Source: Pseudoclavibacter caeni (GTDB lineage Bacteria > Actinomycetota > Actinomycetes > Actinomycetales > Microbacteriaceae). From it: a stretch of DNA of 64,000 bases. The notes under the pieces were generated by a model. That model did no database searches, was not told the DNA's origin, and saw only the letters and a list, made by a program, of their open reading frames with translations. The position numbers and the translations under genes were made by a program. Where the stretch lies: NCBI RefSeq assembly GCF_008831125.1, contig NZ_WBKA01000002.1, forward strand, positions 186,001 through 250,000, given 5' to 3'. Shown here piece by piece: positions 12,807-40,566 of the stretch (position 1 is the first letter of the stretch; every line of letters starts with the position of its first letter).

Positions 12807-13934
12807 ATGCGTCGCATCGTGGTCATCGTGCCCTGCTTCAACGAGCAGGAGAGCCTCGCCCGTCTGCATGATCGGGTGCAGGCGGTGGCCGCGACGCTCC
12901 CCGATTACCGCGTCGACCTGCTGCTCGTCGACGACGGCAGCACGGACGACACGCCGCGGCTGATGCGTGAGCTCGCCGCCGCCGACCCCCATGTGGGCTA
13001 CCTCGTGCTCAGCCGCAACTTCGGCAAGGAGCACGCGATGGCCGCCGGCCTCGATCAAACGGATGCGGATGCGGTGGTGCTGATGGACGCGGACCTGCAG
13101 GATCCCCCGGAGCTCCTGCCCGAGATGGTGATGCTGTGGGAACAGGGGTATGAGGACGTGTCCGCGCGACGACGGCAGCGTCAGGGCGAGTCGTGGTTCA
13201 AGCGGTCGTCAGCGCACCTGTTCTACCGGCTGCTGCACCGCGTGGCCCGGGTGGAGATCCAGGTCGACACCGGGGATTTCCGGCTGCTCGACCGCCGCTG
13301 TGTGGAGGCGCTGCGCGCGTACCGCGAGACGGACCGGTACACGAAGGGCCTGTTCTCGCTCGTCGGCTTCCGCAAGGCGCAGGTGCTCTATGACCGGCCG
13401 GGACGCTTCGCGGGCCACTCGAAGTGGGGGTACCGTGCCCTGTTCGATCTGGCGTCCGAGGGCCTGACCTCGTTCACCACAGCCCCGTTGAGGCTCGCGA
13501 CGGTGCTGGGGATGCTCATCTCGACGGCCGCGTTCGTGTATCTGATCGTGATCGTGGTGCGCACGCTCATCCACGGCCCCGACGAGGCAGGCTACCCCTC
13601 GATGATGGCCGTGCTGCTGTTCCTGGGCGGCGTGCAGCTGCTGGCGCTCGGCATCATCGGCGAGTATCTGGGGCGGGTGTTCAACGAGACGAAGCGGCGG
13701 CCCCTGTACATCGTCAGCGATGCCCGGTTGTGGGGCACGCCGGTGCGCGCGGCCGAGGGCGTGCCGGTGATCTCGCCGCGCGAGCCGTCGGCCGTCAATG
13801 CGTCATCAGATCGACCGGCAGGCCCCACCACGGCGGGCGACGTCACAGACGCTGGCGAGGAGTCCTCCACCCCGGACGACATCACGGCAGGCGACTCCAT
13901 CACTCCTGTCAATGAGCCCCCAGCCAGTCGATGA
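12807..13934 (+). CDS. GtrB/DPM1-type membrane glycosyltransferase (GT2)
   Basis: Probably transfers a sugar from a nucleotide donor to polyprenyl phosphate at the inner face of the membrane. The GT2 core starts RRIVVIVPCFNEQESLARLH with LLVDDGSTDDTP and the catalytic DADLQDPPELLPEM. Two C-terminal transmembrane helices (ATVLGMLISTAAFVYLIVIV and MMAVLLFLGGVQLLALGIIG) and the IGEYLGRVFNETKRRPLY ending are typical of GtrB/ArnC-like proteins. A Ser/Thr/Asp-rich tail of ~65 residues follows. It may supply lipid-linked sugar to the adjacent GT-C enzyme or another envelope glycan. The 3' end overlaps the oppositely oriented GGDEF-EAL gene by 26 bp. Confidence 0.88.
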   Translation: MRRIVVIVPCFNEQESLARLHDRVQAVAATLPDYRVDLLLVDDGSTDDTPRLMRELAAADPHVGYLVLSRNFGKEHAMAAGLDQTDADAVVLMDADLQDPPELLPEMVMLWEQGYEDVSARRRQRQGESWFKRSSAHLFYRLLHRVARVEIQVDTGDFRLLDRRCVEALRAYRETDRYTKGLFSLVGFRKAQVLYDRPGRFAGHSKWGYRALFDLASEGLTSFTTAPLRLATVLGMLISTAAFVYLIVIVVRTLIHGPDEAGYPSMMAVLLFLGGVQLLALGIIGEYLGRVFNETKRRPLYIVSDARLWGTPVRAAEGVPVISPREPSAVNASSDRPAGPTTAGDVTDAGEESSTPDDITAGDSITPVNEPPASR

Positions 13935-16521
13935 GTCGGTCGGCCGATTTGGGCCTGCTGAACAGGAAACCCTGCCCGTAACGCACACCGACCCGCTGCA
14001 GTCGACCGCGCTGGCCGGGCGTCTCGATGCCCTCGGCGCTGATGGTGAACGACATCGTCCTGGCGAGGTGGGTGAGTCCGGTGATGAGCTGCCCGGCGCG
14101 CTCCGGCTGGGTGGCGAGGTAGTCGGTGAGCGACTTGTCGAGCTTGAGCAGATTCGCGGGGAAGCGCACGAGGCTGTTGACCGATGAGAACGCCTTGCCG
14201 AAGTCGTCGAGAGCGAGCATCATGCCATGGTCACGGGTGAAGGCGACGAGCCGTTCGAGCACGTCGTCGGTCGCCTGGTCGAGTGAGCGCTCCGAGAGCT
14301 CGAAGACGAACGAGACGTCGGGGTGTGCCTCCACGTGCTCGGCCAGGACGTCCATGAGCGCCTGGTCGAGCACCTGCCCGGCCTCGAAGTTCACGTTGAG
14401 GCTCGCCACCTCCGGGTCAGCCCGGCGGATGCGCTCGATGCCCGCGAACGCCCCGCGCACGACCTGCTCGGTGAGGCGTGACAGGAGACCGGTGCGGTTG
14501 GCCACGTCCACGATCAGCTGCGGCGGCACGTCGCCGATGTGGTCGTCGCGGTAGCGCACGAGCGCCTCGACTCCGATCACCTTCGCATCGGCCAGACGCA
14601 CCGTCGGCTGGAACCAGACGGACAGCTGCCCGGCCTCGATGCCGTGACGCACCTGCGACTCAAGATCCGAGGGCGTGATGACGCCGCGTGCGGATGTGGC
14701 GTTCGACCAGTCCGATGGGCGTGCAGGCGTGCCCGCCGTGCTCCCCCCGGTCGTCGCGCCCCGTGCGTCGGTGCCCTGGGCCGTGCTGCGGTCGCCGGAT
14801 GCCACCCACGAGTCCGCATCGCGTGTCTCCTCCGGTTCCTCCGGTGTGGTTCGGCCGGCCGTCGCCCTGTCCTGTGCGGTCGACGCCTCGTCACCGGGCG
14901 CGGTGCCCATCCCGGCTACCGGGTGGGCCGCGCGCATGAGCAGCTGTTCGATCCCCATGCCGAGCCGCCGCTTCTTGCCCTCGTACATGCGTTCGTCGGC
15001 CTCCTCGAGCAGGTCGGTGACGCTCGTGCGGCCGGGAACCGCGCCGGCGACGCCGACGCTGACGGTGAGGGTGATGACCTGCCCGTCGATGTGCATGGGC
15101 CGGTTTATGCCTTGCTGCACGCGTCGGGCGACCGCGCGTGCAGCGTCCTCGTCAGTGGTGCCGGGCAGCATCACCACGAACTCGTCGCCGCCGATGCGGC
15201 CGATCACGTCGTTGGGGCGCAGGGCGCCGCGCAGGCGCCGGGCGACCTCTTCCAGCACGAGGTTGCCGGCGTGGTGGCCGTGCACGTCGTTGACCGCCTT
15301 GAAGTCATCGAGATCGAGGTAGAGCACCGGCGGCACGATGCCCGTCTCGTCGATCACCCGCTGTGCGGTGAGTCGGAACCCCCGGTAGTTGAGCACGCCG
15401 GTGAGGTCGTCGGTGTTCGCCCGCTGGGCAAGGTCGTCGATGCGGCGGCGGGAGGCGAGGGTCACCGACGCCATGTGGGCGAGGCCCTCGACGATGTGCT
15501 GCTCGGTGCGGCTGAACGGGGTCATGTTGTCTCGGCTGGTGACGACGAGCCAGCTGCCGCCGCCGTCCGGTGCGTGTACCTGCTCGCCGATCTCGGCGGC
15601 CCTGGGCGGTCGGTCGCGCAGAGTGACGGTGCCGTTGGGGATCGCCCGGCGGGCGAACTCCTCGAGCCGCACGAGCACGGGGGTGTCGGAATCGTCCCAG
15701 GGGAGGGCGAGCGCCGCCCGCACCATCGCGTCGAGCTGGCGACGCAGCATCCGCCGCCGATACCGCTCGTACCAGGTGACGACGATGATCGTCACGACGA
15801 GCAGCACCACCGCGCGCACGTCGAGCAGATCCTGGAACCGCCCCCCGCCGTCGATGGCGTCACCCAGGTGGTCGGCGCCGATGGCCGCCCAGCAGGCAAG
15901 GGTCTCGCCGACCATGATCTGCACGAGGCGCCGCCAGTGCATCCGCACCGGTTCGACTCCCTCCATCGTGAGCATGCGGCGGAAGACGAGGGGCAACGAG
16001 CAGACCGAGACGACGGTGCCGACGAGCACGGCGACCGGGCTCGGCAGCCCGACGAGCGTGGCCACCCCGGTCGTCAGGGAGAACACCAGCCCGATGAACG
16101 CCGTCGTGAGCGCCTGCAGCAGCCCCGACCGGCGGTCGTAACCGGCGAACTGCAACACGACGAACGTGGTCACCGCCCAGATCGGATAGGCCGAGGTATA
16201 GGCGCCGCCGATGTACAGGTACACGACCAGCGGCGCCAGCAACGTCATCCGCAGGGCATGGGAGCCGCGGGTGACTTGGACGCCCACGCCGCGCAGCAGC
16301 ACCATCGAGAATACGACGAGTGCGGTATACGCCCAGTTGGGCATCGGTGCGCCGGCGAGGATACGGGTGATGGTGAAGGAGACGGATCCGACCACCCCGG
16401 CGAGCACCAGCAACGCGACCGGCAGTGCGACCCCGAGCCGCACCCGGTACGGGTAGCGGGAGACCTCGTCGACGACGGTCTGCGTCGGGGTCACGGTGAG
16501 GTGCGGGGTGAGGTGGGCCAT
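13909..16521 (-). CDS. Membrane-bound diguanylate cyclase/phosphodiesterase (GGDEF-EAL)
   Basis: An 870-aa protein predicted to make and/or degrade cyclic di-GMP. Residues ~26-250 hold about seven hydrophobic segments (membrane sensor). A linker leads to a GGDEF domain with intact GGDEF at 444-448 and an inhibitory-site RxxD (RPND, 435-438). A Gly/Thr-rich linker of ~90 residues precedes an EAL domain. There EAL is at 652-654, with NVNFE, FELSER, LDDFGKAFSS, LKLDKS and SAEGIET all present, so the residues expected for metal binding and catalysis are retained. Net activity cannot be predicted. It lies 27 bp downstream of the MshEN-GT2 gene and has its own leaderless-type promoter. Confidence 0.95.
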   Translation of the reverse strand: MAHLTPHLTVTPTQTVVDEVSRYPYRVRLGVALPVALLVLAGVVGSVSFTITRILAGAPMPNWAYTALVVFSMVLLRGVGVQVTRGSHALRMTLLAPLVVYLYIGGAYTSAYPIWAVTTFVVLQFAGYDRRSGLLQALTTAFIGLVFSLTTGVATLVGLPSPVAVLVGTVVSVCSLPLVFRRMLTMEGVEPVRMHWRRLVQIMVGETLACWAAIGADHLGDAIDGGGRFQDLLDVRAVVLLVVTIIVVTWYERYRRRMLRRQLDAMVRAALALPWDDSDTPVLVRLEEFARRAIPNGTVTLRDRPPRAAEIGEQVHAPDGGGSWLVVTSRDNMTPFSRTEQHIVEGLAHMASVTLASRRRIDDLAQRANTDDLTGVLNYRGFRLTAQRVIDETGIVPPVLYLDLDDFKAVNDVHGHHAGNLVLEEVARRLRGALRPNDVIGRIGGDEFVVMLPGTTDEDAARAVARRVQQGINRPMHIDGQVITLTVSVGVAGAVPGRTSVTDLLEEADERMYEGKKRRLGMGIEQLLMRAAHPVAGMGTAPGDEASTAQDRATAGRTTPEEPEETRDADSWVASGDRSTAQGTDARGATTGGSTAGTPARPSDWSNATSARGVITPSDLESQVRHGIEAGQLSVWFQPTVRLADAKVIGVEALVRYRDDHIGDVPPQLIVDVANRTGLLSRLTEQVVRGAFAGIERIRRADPEVASLNVNFEAGQVLDQALMDVLAEHVEAHPDVSFVFELSERSLDQATDDVLERLVAFTRDHGMMLALDDFGKAFSSVNSLVRFPANLLKLDKSLTDYLATQPERAGQLITGLTHLARTMSFTISAEGIETPGQRGRLQRVGVRYGQGFLFSRPKSADRLIDWLGAH

Positions 16522-18618: not shown

Positions 18619-18623
18619 GGCGG

Positions 18624-20279
18624 TCACCAGGCCAGATGGTAGACGGCATGGGTGTCCGTGGCGAACACGCGAACGTAGCCAGCGTAGTCCTGGGGATGGT
18701 CCAGCATCCGCTGGTAGACCGCATCCCGGCCGTCGAGGTTGACGCCGCCGGTGTCCTGCGTGTTGACGAAGATCCATTCGGCGTGGGTGCGCGGGCTGTC
18801 CATGGCCTCCTCGAACAGGTCGCCGGTCGAGCGGTTCCAGTACTCGCGGATGGGCTGCTGCACCAGCGGGATGATGCCGCTGCTCGATGCGGACTCGTCC
18901 ATCAGGATGCCTCCTCCCTGGTAGTGATCGCGCAAGTACACGGCGGCTGCGTCCGGGCGCTTGGACTGGTTGTAGGCGCCCTCGCCGATCATCGGGTTGC
19001 GGTCGACGGGATCCTGGGCCCACCAGCCGAGCTGGGCGATGAGTGCGACGGCCACCGCGGGGGCGGCGAGTGCGCCGAGCGGGTGGCGCACACGGGTCAG
19101 CGCCCGGCGCAGCGCCTCGGCGGCGAAGCCTGCTCCGAGCGCGAAGAACAGCAGCCCGGCGACGCCGTAGCGGACGTTGAACAGCCCGGTGGGCAGAGAG
19201 TGGTCGTTGTTCATGACCGACTGCCCCAGGCTCAGGCTGAGCACCTCGAACACGAAGGTGGACAGGGAGACTCCGACGATCAGGGTGGCGGTGCTCATCC
19301 CCTGCCGCCAGACGAGCCAGGCGAAGCCGAGCAGTCCGACGACGAAGGTGACGCCGCCGATGACCTCCCATGCCGACCAGGTGTACACGTAGAGGCTCAG
19401 CCCGGGATGGCCCTTCGTCGTCAGGGATCCGTATTCGCTGATGGCCTGCTGCTGGGCGAACGCGGAGTACTGGCCGAACATGAACTCGAGCGGGTTGCCA
19501 TAGAGGGCGTAGTTGTAGGCCAGCCACCAGACGACGCCCACGGCGGGCGCGCTGAGCGCGGGCAGCACCCGGCGCAGCAGGGTGAAGCGCAGCGGGTGCG
19601 GTGTGGTGCCGCGTCGCCGGGGCCAGTCGACGATCACGATGAACAGTGCGGCGCTGAGCGCCATCACCCAGCCCTCATAGCGGGAGAGCACCCCGACGGC
19701 TGCGGGCACGCCGATGTACACAGCGATCTCCCCGCCGCTCATGTCTCGCTCCGAGACCGCCCAGTGCGTGAGCCCGGCGAGAATGCCGGCCATGGAGGCG
19801 ATGAGCACCGGCTCGGTCAGCGCGGTGGTGTGCGCGTACAGGAAGCCGGCGCTCGTCCACAGCACGAGGACCGGGATCATCCGCGTCCCCAGGCCGAGGC
19901 CGAGTCGGGCCGCGGTGCGCCAGATCGCAGCCGAGGTGGCGGCGAAGCAGAGCATCCCGAGCAGTGCGGCGCCCCAGCCCTTGTACCACAGCCACAGGTT
20001 CTGCACGAACACGAGCAGCAGAAGGTGCGGCATCGGCAGCCACACGGTGCCCAGCTGCTGGAACCCGGGTGCCTTGCTGTCGACGATGCGGCGGGCGATG
20101 GTCAGGTGTGACAGGGCATCCGAGTACCACATGTTCGCCCCATGGCCGATCACGTACAGCGACAGCCCGTACATGAGCAGCAGACTGACGATGGCGACGA
20201 CGGCGGTGCCCGGAACGCGCCGCCCGGTGGGCGTGGGGTGGAGGGTCGCCCACCAGCGGCGCAGCCGGTCAGCGGTCAT
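18624..20279 (-). CDS. GT-C fold membrane glycosyltransferase (ArnT/PMT-like)
   Basis: A 551-aa polytopic protein with roughly ten hydrophobic segments. The first external loop carries MWYSDALSHLTIARR and GFQQLGTVWLPMPHLL, the layout of lipid-linked-sugar-dependent transferases of the PMT/ArnT superfamily, with Asp54 a candidate catalytic acid. The C-terminal ~120 residues are a soluble, probably extracytoplasmic domain. The ATG overlaps the stop of the BcsB-like gene (ATGA) and its stop overlaps a possible start of the MshEN-GT2 gene. It probably decorates the polymer or an envelope glycan; the GtrB-like enzyme could provide its lipid-linked donor. Confidence 0.8.
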   Translation of the reverse strand: MTADRLRRWWATLHPTPTGRRVPGTAVVAIVSLLLMYGLSLYVIGHGANMWYSDALSHLTIARRIVDSKAPGFQQLGTVWLPMPHLLLLVFVQNLWLWYKGWGAALLGMLCFAATSAAIWRTAARLGLGLGTRMIPVLVLWTSAGFLYAHTTALTEPVLIASMAGILAGLTHWAVSERDMSGGEIAVYIGVPAAVGVLSRYEGWVMALSAALFIVIVDWPRRRGTTPHPLRFTLLRRVLPALSAPAVGVVWWLAYNYALYGNPLEFMFGQYSAFAQQQAISEYGSLTTKGHPGLSLYVYTWSAWEVIGGVTFVVGLLGFAWLVWRQGMSTATLIVGVSLSTFVFEVLSLSLGQSVMNNDHSLPTGLFNVRYGVAGLLFFALGAGFAAEALRRALTRVRHPLGALAAPAVAVALIAQLGWWAQDPVDRNPMIGEGAYNQSKRPDAAAVYLRDHYQGGGILMDESASSSGIIPLVQQPIREYWNRSTGDLFEEAMDSPRTHAEWIFVNTQDTGGVNLDGRDAVYQRMLDHPQDYAGYVRVFATDTHAVYHLAW

Positions 20280-22570: not shown

Positions 22571-22891
22571 CCGCAGCTCCAAGTCTCCGGTTGGGGATCC
22601 GCCCGCCTGTGCGCATCCCGCCAACATCCCTTTGACATCATACTAGGGAGTCTGCACAGCGGACGGGTCTCCCGCCGCCTCGGATCGCCTGGCGTGGAGA
22701 GACCTCGTCCTCGTGGACCATGCGAAGAGAGCCCAGTCGCCAGCCCGCTGACCGTCGCTCGCCGGATCGCTCACGTCGAACGACCACGGCTGGGTGATCT
22801 GCAGCAGCTGCCCGTCTCGGGCGCTGCCGGCAGCCGGGTGCGGCGAGAATGCTGACGCTGTGATCCCCCCCCGCTGGGCATCGTTGGTGCC
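22571..22891 (-). other. Region between the J-protein gene and the BcsB-like gene
   Basis: Directly after the J-protein stop a small hairpin (GGGCA/TGCCC) is followed by a run of eight G (22865-22872 on plus as C). The J-protein frame stays open for about 80 codons past its TAG, but with no start of its own. A -10-like TATGAT lies near the right-to-left end. I see no convincing gene. Confidence 0.45.
22637..22642 (-). promoter_or_regulatory. -10 element upstream of the polysaccharide operon
   Basis: TATGAT on the minus strand, 67 bp before the chosen start of the BcsB-like gene. The -35 position is poor (CGTCCG), so an activator may be needed. Confidence 0.45.
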
Positions 22892-24193
22892 CTACCGCGT
22901 CGGCGGCACGACCTCCGCCTGTTCGTCGGCGCCCCGGTGCTCGCCCATCCACTCGAGCATCCGCCGCTCGGGGTCTGTCAGTCGCTTCGGGGTGAGCACG
23001 CGGGCCACAAGCCGCAGATCGCCGGCGCCGCCGTCAGTCTTCGGCAGGCCTGCACCGGGCACGGTGAGCACGTCGTCCGTGCCTGTGCCGGCGGGCACGC
23101 GCAGCCGACGGGTTCCGCCGGGAGCGGGCACGTCGACCTCGGTGCCGAGCACGGCGTCGACGAGAGGCAGGTCGATCTGTCCGACGAGGTCATCGCCGTC
23201 CGGAGTGAACAGCGTGTCGTCGAATGAGCGTGTGGGCGTGGCAGGAGTGGCCGCACCGTCCACCACGGGCGCCGGACCAGTGGCGTTCGTCCGTCCGTAG
23301 AGCGCAGCGGTGTTGACCCGCACCCGACTGACCGCGACGTCGGCGTCATCCGGCGCCCCTGCTGCGGCCGAGGCATCGGTCTTGTCATCGATGTCTCGGG
23401 CGGTCTTCGGCTCGTTCTCCCACCCGTGCCAGTCGGTCGCGACACGGATGCGTGCCCCGGCCGCCGCATCGCGCGGTGGCTCGGATGCGGCAGTCGCCCG
23501 CCGGGCCTCCTCGCGCGCACGCGCGGCACGGCGCTCATCGGCCTCCCGCTGTGCTCTGGCCTCCTGCTCGGCGGCCTGTCGGGCCTCCTCCGCGAGTCTG
23601 CGCAGTTCGGCGAGATCGGCCTCCTCGCGCTGTCGTGCCGCGGCGGCCTCGGCGGTGCGCCGGGCGAGCTCCTCGTCGGGGTCTGGGTCGGCGTGCCGAG
23701 CCCCGCGATGGCGGGCGGCGCGGCGCGTGTCAGGAACGGCGTCGGCATCTTCCAGATCCGCCCGCCCCTCGACCGGGGACTCTGCCTCGCGAGCCGCACG
23801 CTCAGCGGCAGCTCGCTTCGCCTCCTGGGCAGCCCCGTTCGCGGCAGCGGCCTGCGCATCTGAACCGGTGCTCGGCTCGCCCTGTGACCTGGACGGTTCA
23901 TCCGCTGCAGCCCGCTCGGCATTCCGTCGGGCACGCTGCGCCTGCGCGGCCCCGGCCGTGGCCCCGGTGGCCTGCGGTGCCTCCGGCTGTGTGCCGTAGG
24001 TCGCGCGGAAGCGGCGTTCCTCCTGGATCACGTCGTAGGCGGCCGTGACCGTTTTGAAGTCCTCGACTGCGCTGGGGTCGGAGTTCATATCAGGATGCAG
24101 GCTGCGAGCGAGCTGCAGAAAGGCCCGACGCACCTGCTTGTCACTGGCGAACGGGCTCACTCCCAGCAGGGCATACGCGTTCTCGGCGAGCAT
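22892..24193 (-). CDS. J-domain protein with charged linker and DnaJ-like C-terminal domain, no zinc finger
   Basis: A 433-aa co-chaperone-like protein. Residues 1-~66 are a J domain (NAYALLGVSPFASDKQVRRA) with HPD at 33-35, the Hsp70-stimulating motif. About 240 residues of Ala/Glu/Arg-rich helical or disordered linker follow. The last ~110 residues resemble a DnaJ C-terminal substrate-binding domain (DLVGQIDLPLVDAVLGTEV, LRVPAGTGTDDVLTVPGAGL). No Cys-rich zinc domain is present, so this is not canonical DnaJ. The ATG overlaps the stop of the TM-coiled-coil gene by one base (TGATG), so the two are co-translated. The client may be a pilus or synthase component; that is inference. Confidence 0.82.
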   Translation of the reverse strand: MLAENAYALLGVSPFASDKQVRRAFLQLARSLHPDMNSDPSAVEDFKTVTAAYDVIQEERRFRATYGTQPEAPQATGATAGAAQAQRARRNAERAAADEPSRSQGEPSTGSDAQAAAANGAAQEAKRAAAERAAREAESPVEGRADLEDADAVPDTRRAARHRGARHADPDPDEELARRTAEAAAARQREEADLAELRRLAEEARQAAEQEARAQREADERRAARAREEARRATAASEPPRDAAAGARIRVATDWHGWENEPKTARDIDDKTDASAAAGAPDDADVAVSRVRVNTAALYGRTNATGPAPVVDGAATPATPTRSFDDTLFTPDGDDLVGQIDLPLVDAVLGTEVDVPAPGGTRRLRVPAGTGTDDVLTVPGAGLPKTDGGAGDLRLVARVLTPKRLTDPERRMLEWMGEHRGADEQAEVVPPTR

Positions 24194-25482
24194 CAGCGGC
24201 CAGCCTCACTGTCCCTCGGCCCGTTCGAGGCCTCACCAGCCCCGTCGGTCGGTCGAGCCTGCTGCTGTGCGAGCTTCTCACGCAAGCTCTCCACGGTCTT
24301 CTGCGCGTCCTCCAGCGAGCCCTCGAGCTCGCGGCGCTTCCGGCTCTCCTCGGCGAGCTTCGAAGTGAGCTGGCCGATGTGCTCCTCGGAGGAGTTGATC
24401 GCATCCTCCAGCGCGCGCAGGGCGCCGGACTCCAGCTCGCCGTACTGGGCGGCGTACGCACGCTCGATGTCCTCGATGCGCTTGCGGTACTCTTCCGGCA
24501 TCTGCTCCTCGCCGGGCTGGTCGACGGCGGGAATGAACGTGTCGCCGACCTGGATGCCTGCGCGCTGCTCCGGCTCCGGCTTTGCCGCTGCCTGCTCTGC
24601 GGCGGTGTCCTGTGCGGCAGCGGCCTCCTGCAGCTTCGCGGCCTGGTCGACGAGATCTGCGGGGATGCCGCGGGTGTCGGTCGGCACCGGTGACGCATGG
24701 CGGGGACGGTAGCCCTCCTCGTTCACTCCCGGCCGGTCGGTCTGTTCAGGCTGCGCCGCGGCCGCCTCCGGTGTGATCGAGGCGGAGGGGTGCTGCGCCT
24801 CGACCGGCTCATGCCCATCGTTGGAGACACCGGATGGCGACCAGACCTGCCCGGCCGGGGCAGCGGCCTGCGCCGACGCGGTTCCTGCCTCGCCGCTCAT
24901 ATCGGGCCACAGTGAGGGATCCGTCACCTTCACCGAGCCGGCGGCGGGTTCAGCCGACACGGCAGGTTCCGGCTCGGTCGTGTCGTGGACGCCGCTGGTG
25001 AACATCGCATCGGTCCAGCTGGTGATGCCGTCGTCCTCGAACGCGTCGTCGACACCCCCCTGTGCCGCGCCGAACGAGCCGCCCGTACCAGCAGCCGAGA
25101 CGCCAGCAGTCTGAGTCTGTGCAGGATGCTGCTGCGGCGTCTGCCCCTGAGGATGCGCCGCTGCGGGTGTCTCCGCCCCTGCTGCTCGGGCCGTCGCCGC
25201 TGCCGCGGCAGTGGTGTCCTCCGTCGCTGGGGGCAGCTCGCCGACGACGTTCACCGGCTCGGGCACCACCGGACGCCGAAGCGGGACACGACCGGGACGC
25301 ATGCCAGACCCTCCCTGTGGAAACAGGGGCGACCCGCCCGCGGTCGCGGCGCGTTTCGCCTCGAGCTCTGCCCGGGCCTGCCGCTCCCGTCTCCACTTGC
25401 GCAGGAGCAGCACCGCCAACACGATGAGGCTCGCGACGGCCACTGCCACGATCACGAGTTCAACGATCATCATGATGCTCAC
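24193..25482 (-). CDS. Membrane-anchored disordered/coiled-coil protein, unknown function
   Basis: A 429-aa protein not recognised as a known family. An N-terminal transmembrane helix (IVELVIVAVAVASLIVLAVL) is followed by a basic stretch. Then come some 260 low-complexity residues rich in Ala/Pro/Gln/Thr and a C-terminal coiled coil (roughly residues 325-410, with heptad pattern in IGQLTSKLAEESRKRRELEG). The GTG at 25482 has GGGGAG 8 nt upstream. It resembles a scaffold or polar-localisation protein in layout. Its partners are suggested by linkage: the J-protein downstream by overlap, the protoglobin upstream. Confidence 0.75.
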   Translation of the reverse strand: MSIMMIVELVIVAVAVASLIVLAVLLLRKWRRERQARAELEAKRAATAGGSPLFPQGGSGMRPGRVPLRRPVVPEPVNVVGELPPATEDTTAAAAATARAAGAETPAAAHPQGQTPQQHPAQTQTAGVSAAGTGGSFGAAQGGVDDAFEDDGITSWTDAMFTSGVHDTTEPEPAVSAEPAAGSVKVTDPSLWPDMSGEAGTASAQAAAPAGQVWSPSGVSNDGHEPVEAQHPSASITPEAAAAQPEQTDRPGVNEEGYRPRHASPVPTDTRGIPADLVDQAAKLQEAAAAQDTAAEQAAAKPEPEQRAGIQVGDTFIPAVDQPGEEQMPEEYRKRIEDIERAYAAQYGELESGALRALEDAINSSEEHIGQLTSKLAEESRKRRELEGSLEDAQKTVESLREKLAQQQARPTDGAGEASNGPRDSEAGR

Positions 25483-25531
25483 CTGCTCAACTCCCCGGCG
25501 GTCCGAGGGTTCGTTCTGCTCCAGTGCGTCC

Positions 25532-25552
25532 GGTGCAGGAGTTCACTGCACC
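25532..25552 (-). terminator. Hairpin between the protoglobin and coiled-coil genes
   Basis: GGTGCAG (25532-25538) is complementary to CTGCACC (25546-25552) with a 7-nt loop. There is no U tract on the minus strand, so it may be a weak terminator or an mRNA stabiliser. Confidence 0.35.
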
Positions 25553-25582
25553 CGTGCACAAGCGTACTGCCAGCGCCTGTAG

Positions 25583-26206
25583 CTACTGCTGGATCTGGTG
25601 GTCGATCTGGGCACGCACTCGCACCAGCGCCTGGGAGATCTCCTGGTCACGCAGGCGGTGCAGCAGTGCCATCGGCATCCCGGCCACATCGAACAATGCG
25701 GCCTCCGTCGCGACGTCATACCCATGGGCGATCACGGCCGAGACCGTCGCCATGAGCCGGTTGAACGAGTGGGTCAGCCGGTCGGCGTCCTCGGCCGTCA
25801 GCTGCTCGTCAGCCTGCCCGGCGACGACCTCTGCGACGTGGTCGCCCATCGAGAGCATCATCGGGTTGGTCACGCCACGCAACACATGCACGAGGCCGAC
25901 CATCGCCATCCAGTTGAAGTAGCTGTCGCCCAGCGGCCCCTGGACGGTGCGCTCCCACCAGCCGGCGAGGGTGCGCTCGCGGGCAGCGCGCTCGCCGGGC
26001 TTGAAGATCGCCGCGGTGGGCGGGTACGCGTAGAGCGTGTCGTAGAACTCGTGCAGCAGCAGGGGGCCAAGAGACATGAGGAAGTCCTTGTACTCTTGCA
26101 GGATCATCGCGTCACGCTCGGTAAACGCGGTCTCCGGGGGCATCTGCTCGCGCGCAACGCGTGCCACGAGCTCGACATCGAAGCTGTCGTGGGGCTGGTT
26201 CGTCAT
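25583..26206 (-). CDS. Stand-alone protoglobin (heme sensor globin)
   Basis: A 207-aa protein composed almost entirely of a protoglobin/sensor-globin fold: TERDAMILQEYKDFL, then LLHEFYDTLYAYPPTAAIF, then the F-helix region YFNWMAMVGLVHVLRG, where His107 is the likely proximal heme ligand. There is no attached output domain, so it probably signals through a partner, or handles O2/NO itself. The ATG overlaps the Roadblock gene stop (ATGA), pointing to that protein as partner. The assignment is from helix pattern and key residues. Confidence 0.8.
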   Translation of the reverse strand: MTNQPHDSFDVELVARVAREQMPPETAFTERDAMILQEYKDFLMSLGPLLLHEFYDTLYAYPPTAAIFKPGERAARERTLAGWWERTVQGPLGDSYFNWMAMVGLVHVLRGVTNPMMLSMGDHVAEVVAGQADEQLTAEDADRLTHSFNRLMATVSAVIAHGYDVATEAALFDVAGMPMALLHRLRDQEISQALVRVRAQIDHQIQQ

Positions 26207-26568
26207 CGCATGGCCTCCGTGATCTTCGCCGCGGCTGAACGGGCCTCGATGCGCATCAGGCCCAGATTGCTGTTGGCCGGCCCGTTGAGCACGAGCACCA
26301 TCTGGTCGCCGCAAGGGTACACGACCAGGTAACCGTCTCGACCGCGGAAGACGCCCTCTGCGAAGTCACCCAGCTGAGTGCGCTCGACGACACGTTCGCC
26401 GAGACCGAGCGCGGTGGCGGCCATCGCCGCCAGCCGATCGGCGGCATCCTCACTGAAGTCGTGCGCGATCGGCAGACCATCGGCCGTGGCGACCATGACA
26501 CCCGTGAGTGTCGGGATCGACCGACGAATGTCGCCGATGATGTGGACAAGTTCATCCTGTCGACTCAT
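26203..26568 (-). CDS. Roadblock/LC7 domain protein
   Basis: A 121-aa single-domain protein: ELVHIIGDIRRSIPTLTGVM, VATADGLPIAHDF, and GYLVVYPCGDQMVLVLNG match the Roadblock/LC7 fold, whose members (for example MglB) regulate small GTPases or scaffold complexes. No Ras-like GTPase gene is visible in the window. The ATG at 26568 has AGGA 6 nt upstream. It overlaps the protoglobin gene. In Myxococcus MglB sets type IV pilus polarity, so its place directly after the pilus genes may be meaningful (inference). Confidence 0.88.
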   Translation of the reverse strand: MSRQDELVHIIGDIRRSIPTLTGVMVATADGLPIAHDFSEDAADRLAAMAATALGLGERVVERTQLGDFAEGVFRGRDGYLVVYPCGDQMVLVLNGPANSNLGLMRIEARSAAAKITEAMR

Positions 26569-26637
26569 CTTCATTCCTCTCTGGAAGTCCATGCGGAGGG
26601 CATGTCATTCTGTTGTCTATGACTCCGCTGTGTCACA

Positions 26638-26643
26638 ATATTA
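26638..26643 (-). promoter_or_regulatory. -10 element upstream of the Roadblock gene
   Basis: TAATAT on the minus strand within the 158-bp gap after pilO. It is an AT-rich island in GC-rich sequence and would give a leader of about 60 nt. The -35 is not clear. Confidence 0.45.
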
Positions 26644-26726
26644 CCCTGCCCCGCCGACAACCCGGCCACTGAGGCAAGCCTTCCTCTGCCATCACACGTT
26701 CGCCCCGTGCTCCCTCCCCGATGCGG

Positions 26727-27452
26727 TCAAGACTCCGGCCGGATGAACGTGTACCCGCTGAGCACGGCGGTGTAGCTGTTCGCGTCATCACCACTCTCGC
26801 GGTTGATGTTGACCCCGTTGACCCAGTAGATGCGGTCGAGGTGCTGCGCCGCGGAGATGAACCCGGCCATGTTCTCGTAGCCGCCCTTGACCGTGATGCT
26901 CACGGGCACGGCCTGCAGCCGCGAGTCGTTCGCGGCCGCAGCGAGGGCGGCGTTGACCTGCTCGTAGACCCGCTCCTGATCGGCGGTGACCGACGAGGGC
27001 TGGATCGGATAGTCGTCGACGACCTTCTTAAAGTCGGCGAAGGTGATCGGATCCTTCCAGTTGATCGAGCTCAGCTGCACACCGTTGGCGCCGACGATGC
27101 CGTTGATGCTGCGCAGGAAACCCTCCTGATCGATCGCACCGGGCAGTTCCCCCTGGAGTTGCGTGAGCTGAGCCTGCAGTGTGCTCATCTGGCTGGCCTG
27201 GGACTTCGCGTCGGTGATCTGCTGCTGAAGCTGGGTCTGTCTCGCCTGCTCCTCGCTGACCTTCTGGTTCGTCTCAGCCCCGGTGCGAAACACCGGCACG
27301 AGCACCAGCACGACGACAAGCACCTGCACGAGGGCGATGCCCACGATCGCGAAGATCATCAGCGTTCGGGGTGTGATGCTGGATGACAGGCCTTGCCCCT
27401 TCTTCTGCCTCGCTCCACCGGCCGCGGCCTGTGTCTGCTGCTGCTCGGGCAT
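26727..27452 (-). CDS. pilO: Type IV pilus inner-membrane alignment protein PilO
   Basis: A 241-aa bitopic protein: short cytoplasmic N-terminus, transmembrane helix (about 31-54, IFAIVGIALVQVLVVVLVLV), coiled coil (KVSEEQARQTQLQQQITDAK onward), then a ferredoxin-like domain. With PilN and PilM it forms the platform of the pilus motor. Identification rests on topology and position after pilN, whose stop overlaps its ATG (TGATG). It ends the pilus operon. Confidence 0.85.
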   Translation of the reverse strand: MPEQQQTQAAAGGARQKKGQGLSSSITPRTLMIFAIVGIALVQVLVVVLVLVPVFRTGAETNQKVSEEQARQTQLQQQITDAKSQASQMSTLQAQLTQLQGELPGAIDQEGFLRSINGIVGANGVQLSSINWKDPITFADFKKVVDDYPIQPSSVTADQERVYEQVNAALAAAANDSRLQAVPVSITVKGGYENMAGFISAAQHLDRIYWVNGVNINRESGDDANSYTAVLSGYTFIRPES

Positions 27453-28207
27453 CAGTTGCCTCCCTGCTGCACGGCGGTCGTGTCACCGCTCATCGTCAAG
27501 CTGTCGTCGGTGACGAAGCGATTGGTGAACCTGCTGGCGTTCAAGGTGATGGTCAGCTGCGACTGGTATTTCCTTGAGGTGTCTTTGTTCGTTCCGGACG
27601 AGCTCTGCTGCTTGTTGTCGATCTGTTGGGCCGTGACGTCGGCAACCCCGTTGATGACGCGCACATTGTCGATCCACTGGCTGATGTTGGGTAGATCATC
27701 GCTCTCAGCGGTGACCTTGACGGTGCCGATGTTGTCGGCGCTCGGCTTGCTGGTGGAGGATGACGACCCGCTCGACGTCGACCCCACCGTCTGCACGTTG
27801 AACGTGGTGATCGCCATGCCCTGCGGCGTGGCGTTGGTGACGGTGTTGAGCAGATCCTGCCAGTCGCCCTCACGGGCGGTGACGGCGATGCGATCCTGCT
27901 CAAGCTGGGTGATCTGGTCGTCGATGGTGAGCACCTGGGAGTTCTGCCGCAGGGTGGTCTGCAGCTGCGAGGTCGTTGCCTGCTCGGCGGCGAGCGTGCG
28001 CGAGGCGGTGGTGGACGAGCCGCTCGCGTAGGCGAACAGCGCGCCGTTGACGATCACGAAGCCGATGCCGAGCGCCGCGATGACGCGCACCGCTCGCTGC
28101 ATCTCCAGCACTTTCGTCTGCGAAGGCGGCAGCAGGTTGACGCTGGGCGACGAGGGCAGGGTGACCGCCCCGGTGTCGGTCTTGACACGTTTGAAGGTGA
28201 TGGCCAT
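27452..28207 (-). CDS. pilN: Type IV pilus inner-membrane assembly protein PilN
   Basis: A 251-aa bitopic protein with the N-terminal SVNLLPPSQTKV segment, the signature by which PilN docks in a groove of PilM. A transmembrane helix (about 43-62) and a coiled coil with a Ser/Gly-rich loop in the periplasm-equivalent domain follow. It starts 2 nt after pilM and overlaps pilO, the conserved pilMNO order. Confidence 0.88.
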   Translation of the reverse strand: MAITFKRVKTDTGAVTLPSSPSVNLLPPSQTKVLEMQRAVRVIAALGIGFVIVNGALFAYASGSSTTASRTLAAEQATTSQLQTTLRQNSQVLTIDDQITQLEQDRIAVTAREGDWQDLLNTVTNATPQGMAITTFNVQTVGSTSSGSSSSTSKPSADNIGTVKVTAESDDLPNISQWIDNVRVINGVADVTAQQIDNKQQSSSGTNKDTSRKYQSQLTITLNASRFTNRFVTDDSLTMSGDTTAVQQGGN

Positions 28208-28209
28208 GA

Positions 28210-29283
28210 TCAGTTCTCCATCGTTCCGAGCGCGACCGCGCAGGTGCTCAGATGATCGTAGGCGTACGACTCGGCCTCTGCGCTCGCGAAACGCAGCCCC
28301 TGCAACGGCTGGCCGAGGTAGACGGGCAGACCGAGCAAGTCGACGAGGTGCTGTTGCAGACCGGGCATGCGGCTGCCGCCGCCGGTGATGATGACCCGGT
28401 CGATGTGTTCCAGGTCGGGTGTCGTGTTGTGGAAGAACGTGATCGTGTCGCTGATCGCACTCACCAGACGGTCGACCCCTGCGGCGATGGCCTGCTCGGC
28501 GGGGGTCTGTGCGAGACCGCCGAGATAGCCGGTGCTCGCCTTGGCGGCCTCGGCCTCGCCGAACGCCGCGTCATCGACGCTCTGCAGCACCTCGGTGATG
28601 TCGTCGCCGCCACTGGGCAGCATGCGCACGGCGAGGGGGCGGATGCCGTGTACGGCGACGATCTGCGTGGTGCCGGCCCCGAAATCGATGATGAGGTCGG
28701 TGAGCACACGATCGAGCGCATTGCCGCTCCCCTGCCCGTCCGCACCGGCGGTGGGCCGTGTCGGGTCGAGCGCGCGCAGCAGAGCGAAGGCGGAGAGGTC
28801 GACGCCGGTGAGGCGGAGCTTCGCTTTGTGAATGGCCTGAGCCAGCGCCTCCAGTGGCTCTGTCTCTGCGGCGACGAGCAGGCCGGTGTAGGTGGGCTGA
28901 CCGCCGGTGACGCTGAGCGAGGCGGGAAAGTAGTCGAGCACGGCCTTGTCCGGGTCGAGGGGCAGCACGTCGTCGATCTGGTAGCGCAGGCTCGACTTGA
29001 GCATCGTCAGCGGTACGCGCTTCACGGAGTGCTCGCGCACATAGACGTGGCGGTTGCCGATTGAAAGGCGTGCCTGCCGGGTGGTGAAGTCACCCTCGTC
29101 GTAGAGCTGCTGCAGCGCCGCGACGAGCGTGGGCGCATCGAGCACGTCCCCCTGGCTGACCACGCCATGCGGCAGGGACACCTCGTGGTAGCGGGTGACG
29201 GTGATGCCGCCCCGGGTGATGCGCAGCTGGGCGCCGCGGACGGCGGTCTGGCCGATGTCGAGGCCGATCATCTGCCTGGGCAT
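28210..29283 (-). CDS. pilM: Type IV pilus actin-like assembly ATPase PilM
   Basis: A 357-aa cytoplasmic actin-fold protein that links PilN to the assembly ATPase. Nucleotide-site motifs MIGLDIGQTAVRG (phosphate 1), LIIDFGAGTTQIVAV (phosphate 2) and VIITGGGSRMPGLQQHL (adenosine) are intact. GAGGAG lies just upstream of the ATG. A 49-bp gap follows pilD. Confidence 0.95.
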   Translation of the reverse strand: MPRQMIGLDIGQTAVRGAQLRITRGGITVTRYHEVSLPHGVVSQGDVLDAPTLVAALQQLYDEGDFTTRQARLSIGNRHVYVREHSVKRVPLTMLKSSLRYQIDDVLPLDPDKAVLDYFPASLSVTGGQPTYTGLLVAAETEPLEALAQAIHKAKLRLTGVDLSAFALLRALDPTRPTAGADGQGSGNALDRVLTDLIIDFGAGTTQIVAVHGIRPLAVRMLPSGGDDITEVLQSVDDAAFGEAEAAKASTGYLGGLAQTPAEQAIAAGVDRLVSAISDTITFFHNTTPDLEHIDRVIITGGGSRMPGLQQHLVDLLGLPVYLGQPLQGLRFASAEAESYAYDHLSTCAVALGTMEN

Positions 29284-37004: not shown

Positions 37005-38654
37005 TCAGTAGGTGGAGATCCGGTTGCGCAACGACCGGAACGCCTGTGGATCCTTCACATACACCTCAGCCTCGCTGCGATCGACCTGCCCGGTGCCGAC
37101 CAGCTCTGCCAGGTTCTGGTCGAGCGTGCGCATGCCATACTGCGACCCCGACTGCAACGCCGAGTACAGCAGGTGGGTCTTGCCCTCGCGGATCATGTTC
37201 GAAACGGCGCTCGTACCCAGCAGGATCTCACTGGCCGCGACCCGCCCACCGCCCACGCGCTTCAGCAGCGTCTGCGACACCACCCCGCGCAGCGTGCCGG
37301 CCAGCTGGGTGCGAATCTGCCCCTGCTGGGCGGCCGGGAACACATCGATGATGCGATCCACCGTCTGCACGCTGTCCTGCGTGTGCAGGGTGGAGAGCAC
37401 GAGGTGGCCAGTCTCCGCAGCGGTCAGCGCCACCTGGATCGTCTCGTGATCACGGAGCTCGCCGACCAGGATCACATCGGGATCCTGACGCAGCGCCCGG
37501 CGCAAGGCCTCGTTGAACGACTTGGTGTCGCGGCCCACCTCGCGCTGGTTGACCACCGCCTGCTTCGGCTTGTGCACATACTCGATCGGATCCTCGATGG
37601 TGAGGATGTGGCAGGGCCTGGTCTCGTTGACCCGGTCGATCATCGCCGCCAGGGTCGTCGACTTGCCGGAGCCGGTCGGCCCGGTCACGAGCACGAGCCC
37701 GCGAGGCATGTCGGCCAGCTTGTACAGCGACTCGGGCATGTTCAGCTGCTTGAGGCTCAACACCTCATTGGGAATGAGCCGGAACACCCCAGCCACGCCC
37801 AACCGGTCGAACGAGAGGTTCACACGGAAGCGGTAGTCCTCGTCGTAATCGATGCCGAGATCAAGCTCGAACTCGTCGACGAGCTGCTCGAACTCCTCAG
37901 GTGTGAGGATCGACTTGACGATCGCGTGCATCTGCTCGTGCCCCCACGGGGTGGAGAACTGCGGCAGATGCTGCAGGTCGCCGTCGATGCGGAAGCTCGG
38001 CGCCACATCCACGCCGATGTGCAGATCGGAGGCCCCGCGCTCGATGACGAGCCGCAAGCACTCCCGCAGATCCGGATGCATCGTCTCCTGCAGACCGGCC
38101 CGCGTGCGCTGCTGGTCACGCTCCTGCACCAGCCGCTCGACCGCCGGATCACGCACCTGCGAAGCGAAGCCGGGCTGCTCGGCGCCCCGATCGGCGGGCA
38201 CGGTGGCCTGGGCGGCGGGCGCGGTGGGCGTCGCCCGGGCAGAGACCGACACCTCGCCAGCACCCGACACGGTCGGCAGCACCCGGGTCTGCGGGGTCTC
38301 GACCGCGTCGGCAACCGTCGGAGTCGGGCCGGTGCTGGCGACGGGCCACCACGAGGAGCCGGCGGCGCCGGCATCCGACGTGCCAGACGCGGACGACGAG
38401 CCCGGCCCTACGGGCCCGGCCGTGGCATCCGCCGCGCCGGTGTCGGCAGGACCGGCCGCCTCCGGGTGGCCCGCCGCATCCGCAGCCCGCCACTCGGCGG
38501 CCTTGCGGCGCGCCCGCCGCGTCAGCTCCTCCAGCGACGACAGCCCATCGCCGCCATCCAGTGAGAACACCCGGTCACCGCCGGCCGAGGCGTCATCGCC
38601 CCGATCCGACCCACCGGTCGCGCCCCCATGCAACAGATCATCAAGAGACGACAC
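37005..38654 (-). CDS. pilT: Type IV pilus retraction ATPase PilT with long N-terminal extension
   Basis: Hexameric ATPase that depolymerises pili. The core (from about residue 192) has Walker A GPTGSGKS (325-332), the Asp box ILTIEDPIEY, Walker B DVILVGELRD and the PilT-specific AVSNMIREGK (483-492; AIRNLIRE in proteobacteria). About 190 N-terminal residues are Ala/Gly/Pro/Ser-rich and absent from ordinary ~345-aa PilT. I chose the GTG at 38654 because GAGGAGG lies 8 nt upstream; the start therefore overlaps the end of pilB by 14 nt. With PilB it implies dynamic, retractile pili. Confidence 0.95.
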   Translation of the reverse strand: MSSLDDLLHGGATGGSDRGDDASAGGDRVFSLDGGDGLSSLEELTRRARRKAAEWRAADAAGHPEAAGPADTGAADATAGPVGPGSSSASGTSDAGAAGSSWWPVASTGPTPTVADAVETPQTRVLPTVSGAGEVSVSARATPTAPAAQATVPADRGAEQPGFASQVRDPAVERLVQERDQQRTRAGLQETMHPDLRECLRLVIERGASDLHIGVDVAPSFRIDGDLQHLPQFSTPWGHEQMHAIVKSILTPEEFEQLVDEFELDLGIDYDEDYRFRVNLSFDRLGVAGVFRLIPNEVLSLKQLNMPESLYKLADMPRGLVLVTGPTGSGKSTTLAAMIDRVNETRPCHILTIEDPIEYVHKPKQAVVNQREVGRDTKSFNEALRRALRQDPDVILVGELRDHETIQVALTAAETGHLVLSTLHTQDSVQTVDRIIDVFPAAQQGQIRTQLAGTLRGVVSQTLLKRVGGGRVAASEILLGTSAVSNMIREGKTHLLYSALQSGSQYGMRTLDQNLAELVGTGQVDRSEAEVYVKDPQAFRSLRNRISTY

Positions 38655-40311
38655 GCAGAACCTCCTCGATCGTGGTGATGCCCTCGCGGACCTTCGTCCA
38701 GCCGTCACCGCGCATCGGCACGGTGCCCTCGGCCTGAGCCTGTGCGGCGAGGTCGCCCGCGCCGGCACCATCGAGTGTCATCCGCGCCAGCGTCGGCGAC
38801 ATCTCGATGATCTCGTGCACGCCCAGCCGCGAACGGTACCCGCTGTGCTGGCAGTGCGAGCAGCCGACCGCCTCGTACACCTGCACGTCTGCGATCTCCT
38901 CCAGCCCGGCGAGCCCCATCTGCTGTGCCTGCGCGATCGGCACGCTCGTGGGCCGACGACAGTACGCGCACAGCCGGCGGGCCAGGCGCTGACCGACCAC
39001 CGCCGTCAACGCCGACGAGACGAGGTACGGCTCGACGCCCATCTCGGAAAGCCGGGTCACCGCACTGGCCGCGTCGTTCGTGTGCAGCGTCGCGAGCACA
39101 AGGTGGCCGGTCAACGACGCCTCGATCGCGATCTTCGCCGTCTCGGCATCACGGATCTCGCCGATCAACACGATGTCGGGATCGGCGCGCAGGATCGACC
39201 GCAGCGCCGCCGCGAACGTCAGCCCCGCCTTCGGGTTCACCTGCACCTGGTTGATGCCCGGGAACCGGAACTCGACCGGATCCTCCACGGTGATCACGTT
39301 CACCTCGGGCGTGGCCACCTCGCGCAGCGCCGCGTACAGGGTGGTCGACTTGCCCGACCCGGTCGGGCCCGTCACGAGCACGAGCCCGTGCGACTTGTGG
39401 ATCGACCGCTGGAACGCCTCCAGCTGCGCGGGCTCGAAGCCCAGGTCACTCAGATGCGACGGCGCCGACCGGGCGTCCAGCAGTCGCATGACCACCGTCT
39501 CACCCCAGACTGTCGGCAGCGTCGCCACACGCAGATCCACACGACGGTCGCCGGTCGACACGGAGAACCGGCCGTCCTGCGGCGCCCGCTTCTCGGCGAT
39601 GTTCATACCCGCCATGATCTTCAGCCGCGACACGATGCCGGCATGGATGTCACTGTCAGACCGCTGCACCTCGTGCAGGATGCCGTCGATACGGTAGCGG
39701 ACCACCGACTCGTGCTCCCCCGGGTCGATGTGAATGTCACTCGCCCCGTCGTGGATCGCCTGGTTGATGAGCAGGTTGACCACCCGCACGATCGGCGCGG
39801 TGTCGTCATCGGCGGCGGTCTGCAGCGTCGCCGCCTGCCGCTGCTGCACCTCCTCACTGATCGCGTTCGTCAGCGCGCTGAGCTCCTTGTCAGAGCGGTG
39901 GTACTTGTTGATCGCCGCCTGGATCTCCTTGGCGCCGGCGACGACCGGGGTGATGGCGCGTCCTGACGACATCTGCGCGTCGTCAATGGCGAGAACGTTG
40001 CCGGGATCCTGCATCGCGAGCACGAGCCCGCCTTTGCCGGTCAATGCGATCGGGATCACCCCGTCGCGGCGGCACACACTCACCGGCACCGTCGACACGG
40101 CAGCCGGATCGATGCGCACCTGGTCGAGCGCCACATACTCGAAGCCGTCGCGCTGCGCGATGCTCTGCGCCAGATCGGCCGAGCTGACCTTCGTGTTGTC
40201 AATGAGCCACTGCACCTCGCGCGACGACCCGCGGACGGTGAGCGGGATGCTCTTCGCCTCGTCCTCGGTCAGCGCGCCACGGACCAGCAGATCTGGCACC
40301 AGTGAGAGCAT
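38641..40311 (-). CDS. pilB: Type IV pilus assembly ATPase PilB
   Basis: A 556-aa extension motor. The N-terminal ~140 residues are a GspE/MshEN-type region, with motifs less regular than those in the GT2 fusion at 16.5-18.6 kb. Walker A GPTGSGKS is at 315-322, Walker B DIVLIGEIRD at 379-388, and a zinc tetracysteine C448xxC451...C484xxC487 separates it from PilT. AAGGAG lies 6 nt before the ATG. It is the first gene of the pilus operon. c-di-GMP binding is possible but not supported by clear motifs. Confidence 0.97.
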   Translation of the reverse strand: MLSLVPDLLVRGALTEDEAKSIPLTVRGSSREVQWLIDNTKVSSADLAQSIAQRDGFEYVALDQVRIDPAAVSTVPVSVCRRDGVIPIALTGKGGLVLAMQDPGNVLAIDDAQMSSGRAITPVVAGAKEIQAAINKYHRSDKELSALTNAISEEVQQRQAATLQTAADDDTAPIVRVVNLLINQAIHDGASDIHIDPGEHESVVRYRIDGILHEVQRSDSDIHAGIVSRLKIMAGMNIAEKRAPQDGRFSVSTGDRRVDLRVATLPTVWGETVVMRLLDARSAPSHLSDLGFEPAQLEAFQRSIHKSHGLVLVTGPTGSGKSTTLYAALREVATPEVNVITVEDPVEFRFPGINQVQVNPKAGLTFAAALRSILRADPDIVLIGEIRDAETAKIAIEASLTGHLVLATLHTNDAASAVTRLSEMGVEPYLVSSALTAVVGQRLARRLCAYCRRPTSVPIAQAQQMGLAGLEEIADVQVYEAVGCSHCQHSGYRSRLGVHEIIEMSPTLARMTLDGAGAGDLAAQAQAEGTVPMRGDGWTKVREGITTIEEVLRVVS

Positions 40312-40566
40312 CGGCAACTCCTTAGTCTTCCTGCGCTTCACACCCGACGAGCACCCGCGTGAACGACGAACCGCCCGCGAGCATCCGAGCCTTCCCCATC
40401 GTGTTCGACAGGCACCCGCCGGACGATCGTCGCGGTGCAGATCGGGCGTGTGAACGCCCGGACGACGAATCCTGACGCAACTGCACGCTTCACCGCAACG
40501 CGATGCCACCGAAGGCAGAGACGCTGTCAACCATCGCCCGCGCACGTCGCGAACGCGGTCGAACTC

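Follow-up and report, generated by a model that had tools for sequence, protein, structure and literature searches.

The 64,000-nucleotide stretch of DNA analysed here (the window) is part of the 2.06-Mb genome of Pseudoclavibacter caeni and carries, directly behind the pilO gene of a type IV pilus gene set, four genes that encode a Roadblock/LC7 protein, a protoglobin, a transmembrane (TM) coiled-coil protein and a J-protein. All four are on the minus strand, where the order is PilB, PilT, PilC, pilin-like genes, a 1016-residue protein, PilD, PilM, PilN and PilO, followed by the four-gene set. The positions and the two overlaps given for these genes in a preliminary description were confirmed: the protoglobin ATG overlaps the Roadblock stop codon (ATGA), and a TGATG overlap joins the TM coiled-coil and J-protein genes. 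PilN has no family match, and its name rests on its position and on its counterpart in Pseudoclavibacter soli.

26203..26568, minus strand: Roadblock/LC7 protein of the cassette (Robl1), 121 residues; PF03259, 1.3e-17
25583..26206, minus strand: single-domain protoglobin, 207 residues; PF11563, 1.1e-16
24193..25482, minus strand: TM coiled-coil protein, 429 residues if the GTG start is right; no family above curated cut-off
22892..24193, minus strand: J-protein; DnaJ, 1.2e-14, and DnaJ_C, 2.5e-13
26727..29283, minus strand: pilM, pilN and pilO, directly upstream of the Roadblock gene; PF11104, PF04350

The synteny on which the preliminary description depended is found in P. soli, where the order from PilD through PilM, PilN, PilO and the four genes is the same and the last four genes (locus L034, strain DSM 23366, treated as the same organism as the congener G001) overlap successively by 4 bases (9624-9989, 9986-10621, 10618-11826 and 11823-13178). 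Between the two species the Roadblock proteins are 84% and the protoglobins 85-87% identical; the TM coiled-coil and J-proteins reach ~45% over their whole length and 54-64% at their ends. The ratio of nonsynonymous to synonymous difference proportions (pN/pS), in a comparison in which synonymous difference proportions are 0.49-0.67 and synonymous divergence is near saturation, is 0.17 for Roadblock and 0.23 for protoglobin, against 0.43 for PilM, 0.56 for PilN and 0.47 for PilO; values for PilB and part of PilC are 0.25 and 0.20. The coiled-coil protein (0.56) and the J-protein (0.64) are poorly conserved over their length. Roadblock and protoglobin are under strong purifying constraint, and this, together with the order kept in P. 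soli, indicates that the four-gene arrangement is more than chance. The adjacent polysaccharide genes, offered earlier as a possible partner, were rejected as part of the conserved unit, since neither they nor the GGDEF-EAL gene had a match in the ~9 kb after the P. soli J-gene. The GGDEF-EAL protein is outside the unit as well.

The Roadblock gene is the sole PF03259 match in the whole window genome. Its homologues start at 26568, and the longer start proposed by the open reading frame (ORF) finder, at 26592, is unsupported by them. The PF03259 match places the protein in the MglB superfamily of Roadblock/LC7 proteins, and the Roadblock profile (A3) reaches solved chains of CvnB5 (1e-17) and MglB (1.7e-5). 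Outside the genus, identity is 69% with the protein of a Micrococcales metagenome-assembled genome (MAG).

The protoglobin is recognised by its family profile, its globin fold and a candidate proximal histidine. In the 209-residue reading a Phe-Tyr pair occupies residues 56-57 and a histidine residue 109 (54-55 and 107 when counting starts at the ATG), and none of the three varies among the 22 sequences aligned; by protoglobin numbering, we take them to be B9/B10 and the proximal F8 histidine. The structure model (predicted local distance difference test, pLDDT, 92.1; predicted template-modelling score, pTM, 0.84) finds its best solved matches among bacterial sensor-type globin domains (8h17, Z 18.4; AfGcHK, 18.2; GsGCS, 17.6), and the protoglobin of M. 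acetivorans gives Z 15.3. These matches, for which Foldseek was also used, cover residues 11-173, and the residues after ~177 form one more long helix that the matches test little. As described earlier, the protein has no covalent output domain of the kind that defines globin-coupled sensors, only a single globin domain and this extra C-terminal helix. It would be expected to bind heme and O2, NO or CO. Few Actinomycetota have such a protein: of 396 genomes sampled, 5 gave a match at 1e-15, and the match was strong only in the window genome and one other.

The TM coiled-coil protein consists of an N-terminal TM helix, a low-complexity linker and a C-terminal coiled coil, with a signature around GxLESGALxALE and no Pfam or NCBIfam family above cut-off. 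It had been considered unlike known families, but relatives exist: the C-terminal part aligns around a G-x-LE(S/T)xA motif in all seven proteins compared (window, P. soli, Millisia, Gulosibacter, the Micrococcales MAG, Dactylosporangium and Kineosporia), each chosen through a prior BLAST match. By this likeness the window protein belongs to an actinobacterial cassette of Roadblock, protoglobin and GTPase genes, although in Dactylosporangium and Kineosporia the gene is kilobases away from the pair. No match was found in the congeners G002 and G003, a weak negative because the same search also missed the known Gulosibacter copy. The J-protein has a J domain, a long Ala/Glu-rich middle and a DnaJ C-terminal part; DnaJ and DnaJ_C are its sole families above cut-off, so that it is of class B type and, as first described, has no zinc-finger family. 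Outside P. soli, no match to its gene adjoins the pair in the other loci compared. A J-domain match in a Thiobacillus MAG (L055) is ~2 kb from the globin, on the opposite strand.

The Roadblock-protoglobin pair in other bacteria

A scan of genome contigs with a three-sequence protoglobin alignment gave 25 loci, and additional searches gave further ones. After removal of identical copies and of matches shorter than 110 residues, 58 distinct protoglobins were examined, some of them near-copies. From the many matches in Deinococcota the best 30 loci only (L072-L101) were taken, with L102-L107 left out, so that the sample leans to close relatives; two canonical protoglobin loci intended as an outgroup (L004 and L005) gave no row in the tree. 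A same-strand Roadblock gene lies within 300 bp of 30 of the 58 protoglobins. An MglA-type GTPase gene lies within 1.5 kb of at least 17, a lower bound because many loci are only ~3.5 kb long.

On a quick maximum-likelihood tree, for which the program warned of long branches so that deep branching is unsure, the window protoglobin falls in a 25-row group (SH-aLRT, the Shimodaira-Hasegawa-like approximate likelihood ratio test, 95). Within this group 23 rows, all from Actinomycetota and Deinococcota, have a Roadblock gene within 300 bp, and 13 have an MglA-type GTPase gene within 1.5 kb. The two unpaired rows are a copy from a Myxococcota MAG, with Roadblock 423 bp off, and a second globin gene in an operon from Deinococcota. 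The window, P. soli, Millisia, Gulosibacter and Micrococcales MAG sequences form a five-row group (SH-aLRT 90) that is poorly resolved inside. The Roadblock-neighbour label requires 6 changes on the tree, compared with 19.6 in shuffles, and by our own arithmetic (1-17 Roadblock genes per genome) chance adjacency to a globin would be roughly <1% per genome. The pairing of Roadblock and protoglobin is well supported.

The pair also occurs outside this group, in Actinomycetota (L044 and L068), in Methylacidimicrobium (L048) and in Ardenticatenia MAGs (L057 and L058); in the Thiobacillus MAG a GTPase gene adjoins the globin and Roadblock is 2 kb away. Locus L048, from Methylacidimicrobium tartarophylax, has Roadblock followed by two tandem protoglobins (2-1629); we take this genus to be a relative of Methylacidiphilum, in which the HGbRL fusion discussed below is known. 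An apparent Roadblock-protoglobin fusion in the Deinococcota locus L105 (G788) was rejected: the ORF matches both profiles, but it arises through a frameshift in DNA that is duplicated there. In that locus the GTPase-Roadblock-protoglobin stretch is present twice, ~10 kb apart, with the Roadblock frame interrupted.

Thermus plasmids carry compact versions. On Thermus oshimai JL-2 pTHEOS01, genes for a DUF4388 protein, an ATP/GTP-binding protein, Roadblock, protoglobin and an EAL protein stand in a row, and a plasmid of T. thermophilus SNM1-7 has DUF4388, GTPase, Roadblock and protoglobin, then transposases. On T. brockianus pTB1 (L110, 3665-10159) the order is DUF4388, GTP-binding protein, protoglobin, a protein annotated as hypothetical, Roadblock, protoglobin, EAL (PAS-GGDEF-EAL by domains) and HD-GYP (HD_5). 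The hypothetical protein matches PF11563 marginally (26.3 bits, cut-off 25) and is a third globin candidate around one Roadblock.

GTPase-bearing cassettes and the window's neighbouring genes

The genes for Roadblock, protoglobin, TM coiled-coil protein, GTPase and a second Roadblock protein (Robl2) are common to Millisia brevis, Gulosibacter sp. 10 and the Micrococcales MAG; in Millisia and the MAG the protoglobin gene is followed by one for an OmpA-domain protein. Six aligned cassette GTPases keep the P loop and the TPGQ motif (in G3). A profile of six GTPase sequences at E<=1e-6 matched none of the four genomes of the window's genus (G000, the window genome, to G003), and the best single-query match in the window genome had an E value of 0.1; the preliminary remark that the Roadblock protein has no visible GTPase therefore holds genome-wide, although many relatives have one adjacent. 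The same profile matches 11 of 12 other genomes, four of which are its own sources. In these eleven the GTPase is near the pair in five (G323, G324, G325, G333 and G475) and elsewhere in the genome in four, and G334 and G341 have no pair at their globin; the twelfth genome is a Propionibacteriaceae MAG. The Robl2 profile likewise found no match in the four genomes of the genus or in the Propionibacteriaceae MAG, its positives in three of four outgroup genomes being so by construction, as those three supplied the profile sequences. The window Roadblock is a genome-wide orphan whose nearest relatives outside the genus are in GTPase-bearing cassettes. Judged from the tree, the window set appears to be a GTPase-less derivative of this cassette that presumably lost the GTPase and moved behind pilO.

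Further features of the neighbourhood are as follows.

38641..40545, minus strand: PilB-type ATPase with MshEN, a candidate c-di-GMP-binding output (context); T2SSE, 1.9e-135, MshEN, 6.5e-17
13909..16521, minus strand: membrane GGDEF-EAL protein, at the distal end of the downstream gene series (context); EAL, 1.1e-46, GGDEF, 1.1e-33
26607..26636, minus strand: weak promoter-like site just upstream of the Roadblock gene; 9/12 match

There are two upstream T2SSE ATPases, of which the MshEN-bearing one was taken as PilB and the other as PilT. The promoter-like site is the sole match in 22500-27000, where shuffles expect 0.1, and its conservation is not visible in P. soli. On the 3' side of the J-protein gene are genes for a 783-residue protein and a membrane protein, both without a Pfam match above cut-off, then a family 2 glycosyltransferase (GT2) with MshEN, the GGDEF-EAL protein and pyrimidine genes. 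The first part of the MshEN-GT2 ORF (16549-19527) overlaps the upstream gene, so the true start is probably further in. This first part and a 264-residue ORF (16532-17326) were judged spurious frames, with matches throughout GC-rich DNA, and were dropped from later comparisons; a 'BcsB-like' label for 20276-22627 has no family support and is not claimed. The 1016-residue protein (30160-33210), between PilD and the pilin-like genes, has no Pfam match and is 64% identical in P. soli; it is possibly a pilus tip protein or adhesin, although this is a guess. A second pilus-type locus was seen on P. soli contig C5 (L066), in the order PilB-PilC-PilM-PilN-PilO-PilT and 26-57% identical to the window proteins. 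In G002 and G003 (L064 and L065) pilO is followed, by our own reading without a family search, by genes for large LPXTG-like surface proteins and sortase-like genes.

Comparison with known systems

HGbRL of Methylacidiphilum infernorum, a globin-Roadblock/LC7 fusion that its source calls unique to Methylacidiphilum (PMC4476040), is the sole printed globin-Roadblock precedent that we found in the open-licence literature. The likeness is that a globin with heme and a Roadblock domain together make up a putative sensor. HGbRL differs in being one fused protein with an HGbI/flavohaemoglobin-like globin, whereas here the genes are separate and overlapping, the globin is of the protoglobin lineage, and the module occurs in several phyla, often with a GTPase. 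No description of a two-gene protoglobin-Roadblock(-GTPase) module was found in the open-licence literature, in keeping with the earlier view that no system with this set has been described, although absence from print is not thereby proved.

The MglA/MglB polarity systems of Myxococcus xanthus and T. thermophilus resemble the present set in their MglB-superfamily Roadblock protein, in the TPGQ MglA-type GTPase that stands alongside in many relatives, and in the M. xanthus link to type IVa pili (T4aP). They differ in that the module here includes a protoglobin and that no cognate MglA-family GTPase was found in the window genome. Actinobacterial conservons (CvnABCD) also combine Roadblock and a Ras-like GTPase in an operon in Actinomycetota; in contrast, no histidine kinase, CvnC-type or small-GTPase family was seen among the scanned neighbours, and globin, OmpA and TM coiled-coil genes are found instead. 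Globin-coupled sensors (HemAT, AfGcHK, DosC and BpeGReg) share the globin fold, the candidate proximal His and the B10 Tyr, but have a covalent output domain where a separate Roadblock protein is the partner proposed here.

Wuichet and Sogaard-Andersen (PMC4316618) describe PATAN proteins close to certain MglA genes and, in actinobacteria, a small clade of MglB proteins that are orphans. Their Group 1 Rup GTPase systems (section 18) combine the GTPase with coiled-coil and OmpA-domain proteins and with a GGDEF/EAL protein or a kinase, an arrangement similar to the present one. Those GTPases are without the catalytic Gln, whereas the six aligned here keep TPGQ and occur with Roadblock and protoglobin. 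The word globin is absent from the text of that paper.

Proposed mechanism and alternatives

The preferred reading, to which we give about an even chance, is that a globin sensing gas through its heme works together with a Roadblock adaptor, and that Pseudoclavibacter has a derived version of this system that is without the GTPase and was taken into a type IV pilus operon. The Roadblock and protoglobin genes would encode two halves of one heme-based sensor, in which the globin would bind O2, NO or CO and, as the conserved pairing suggests, its ligation state would be passed to the Roadblock protein of the overlapping gene. The MglA-type GTPase beside the pair in about half of the close relatives would be the likely Roadblock target, by analogy with MglB. 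In Pseudoclavibacter, Roadblock, protoglobin and TM coiled-coil genes would be the remainder of the actinobacterial cassette, now behind pilO with the J-protein gene; the order is observed, and the loss and move are presumed. The TM coiled-coil protein would probably anchor the sensor at the membrane, the Roadblock dimer would probably be an adaptor for one of the pilus NTPases (PilM, or the PilB that carries MshEN), and pilus assembly would thereby follow oxygen or NO. This is considered the best explanation because of the pairing statistics, the lack of GTPase and Robl2 matches in the four genomes of the genus, the Thermus operons, the TM coiled-coil homology, the overlaps, the selection on both genes, the heme-ligand residues, the sensor-type fold, HGbRL and the MglA/SgmX precedent. 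A bolder version is doubtful: heme sensing through a Roadblock adaptor would be widespread and would normally set an MglA-type GTPase, and Pseudoclavibacter would have rewired it without the GTPase, placing the Roadblock dimer on PilM or PilB to give an O2/NO-gated type IV pilus.

Several observations weigh against this reading. When the two Millisia proteins are modelled as one linked chain, both domains fold (pLDDT 91.3), but at a pTM of 0.67 the model speaks neither for nor against an interface. In the window's 25-row group, twelve rows, the window included, have no same-strand GTPase within 1.5 kb, although two of these have one at a greater distance (L039, and L075 as read in L106). Thermus-type protoglobins form a 15-row clade, which includes several named Thermus species, without any Roadblock neighbour, and two Deinococcus plasmids (of seven listed Deinococcus records) have a GTP-binding protein and Roadblock beside which no gene is annotated as a globin, the hypothetical ones lying outside the comparison; each partner can therefore do without the other. 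As to INDEPENDENCE from pili, PilM matches at E<=1e-3 were obtained in 20 of 26 genomes searched (18 above cut-off), with none in Gulosibacter sp. 10 despite its full cassette and none in a further four genomes that carry the pair, those of Methylacidimicrobium and three MAGs. Conversely, G002 and G003 have PilM-N-O but no Roadblock or protoglobin match. Pilus and cassette separate freely between genomes, and the pilus link comes down to two species of one genus. Since the pair occurs without pili and pili without the pair, the pilus does not define the set, and the general tie to type IV pili assumed in the preliminary description was not upheld. What stands of its sensing scaffold for the pilus is the pairing of Roadblock with a globin that has heme-ligand residues, but not a general pilus link. 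Heme and gas binding, the Roadblock-protoglobin contact and the action on the pilus are all inferred, and for a role as regulator of the type IVa pilus gene position alone speaks. PilB of M. xanthus is recruited to the T4aP machine by MglA and SgmX (PMC11580455); by analogy, it is plausible that a pilus operon should include a Roadblock protein, although this does not test the idea.

An alternative that is unlikely, although the likeliest of the three considered, is that the gas sensor-Roadblock unit has a c-di-GMP output, through the GGDEF-EAL protein ~10 kb downstream or another, which would act on the MshEN domains of PilB and GT2, with the position behind pilO serving co-expression only. 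The T. oshimai and T. brockianus operons do run on into an EAL-annotated gene, the latter also into HD-GYP; the window has MshEN on both PilB and GT2 as well as a GGDEF-EAL gene; and the Group 1 Rup systems (PMC4316618, section 18) join a GTPase, coiled-coil and OmpA proteins to GGDEF/EAL or a kinase. However, P. soli keeps the four genes without polysaccharide or GGDEF-EAL genes in the 9 kb behind them, and among the actinobacterial loci compared a BLAST match to the window's GGDEF-EAL protein is near the pair only in Kineosporia.

It is improbable that the protoglobin mainly handles NO or O2 while the Roadblock protein serves separately as a scaffold of the pilus, so that their pairing reflects co-regulation and no sensor complex is formed. 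This would accommodate the Roadblock-less protoglobins, the Roadblock-GTPase pairs without an annotated globin and the failure to model an interface, but not easily the pairing that is tight in two phyla and looser elsewhere, the several globins around one Roadblock in T. brockianus, or the separate globin-Roadblock fusion in Methylacidiphilum. We regard as very unlikely that the set is a decaying remnant, in which genes left without their GTPase drift under pilus-operon expression and do little. The GTPase and second Roadblock are indeed not found in the genus, and the coiled-coil and J-proteins are poorly conserved. Roadblock and protoglobin, however, are more constrained than PilM, PilN and PilO, which already weakens the remnant explanation, and overlapping junctions are kept in two species.

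The pair's place at the end of a pilus operon, in a bacterium in which no such GTPase was found, suggests that cell-surface machinery may be reached by an unrecognised route that senses oxygen or nitric oxide. We know of no input signal for most MglA/MglB-type systems, and a protoglobin tied to Roadblock would supply a set of them with a defined signal (O2, NO or CO), while single-domain protoglobins would gain a role. In T. oshimai five genes make up a compact form of the module that includes a second-messenger enzyme, whereas the form in Pseudoclavibacter raises the question of whether Roadblock proteins can act without a GTPase.

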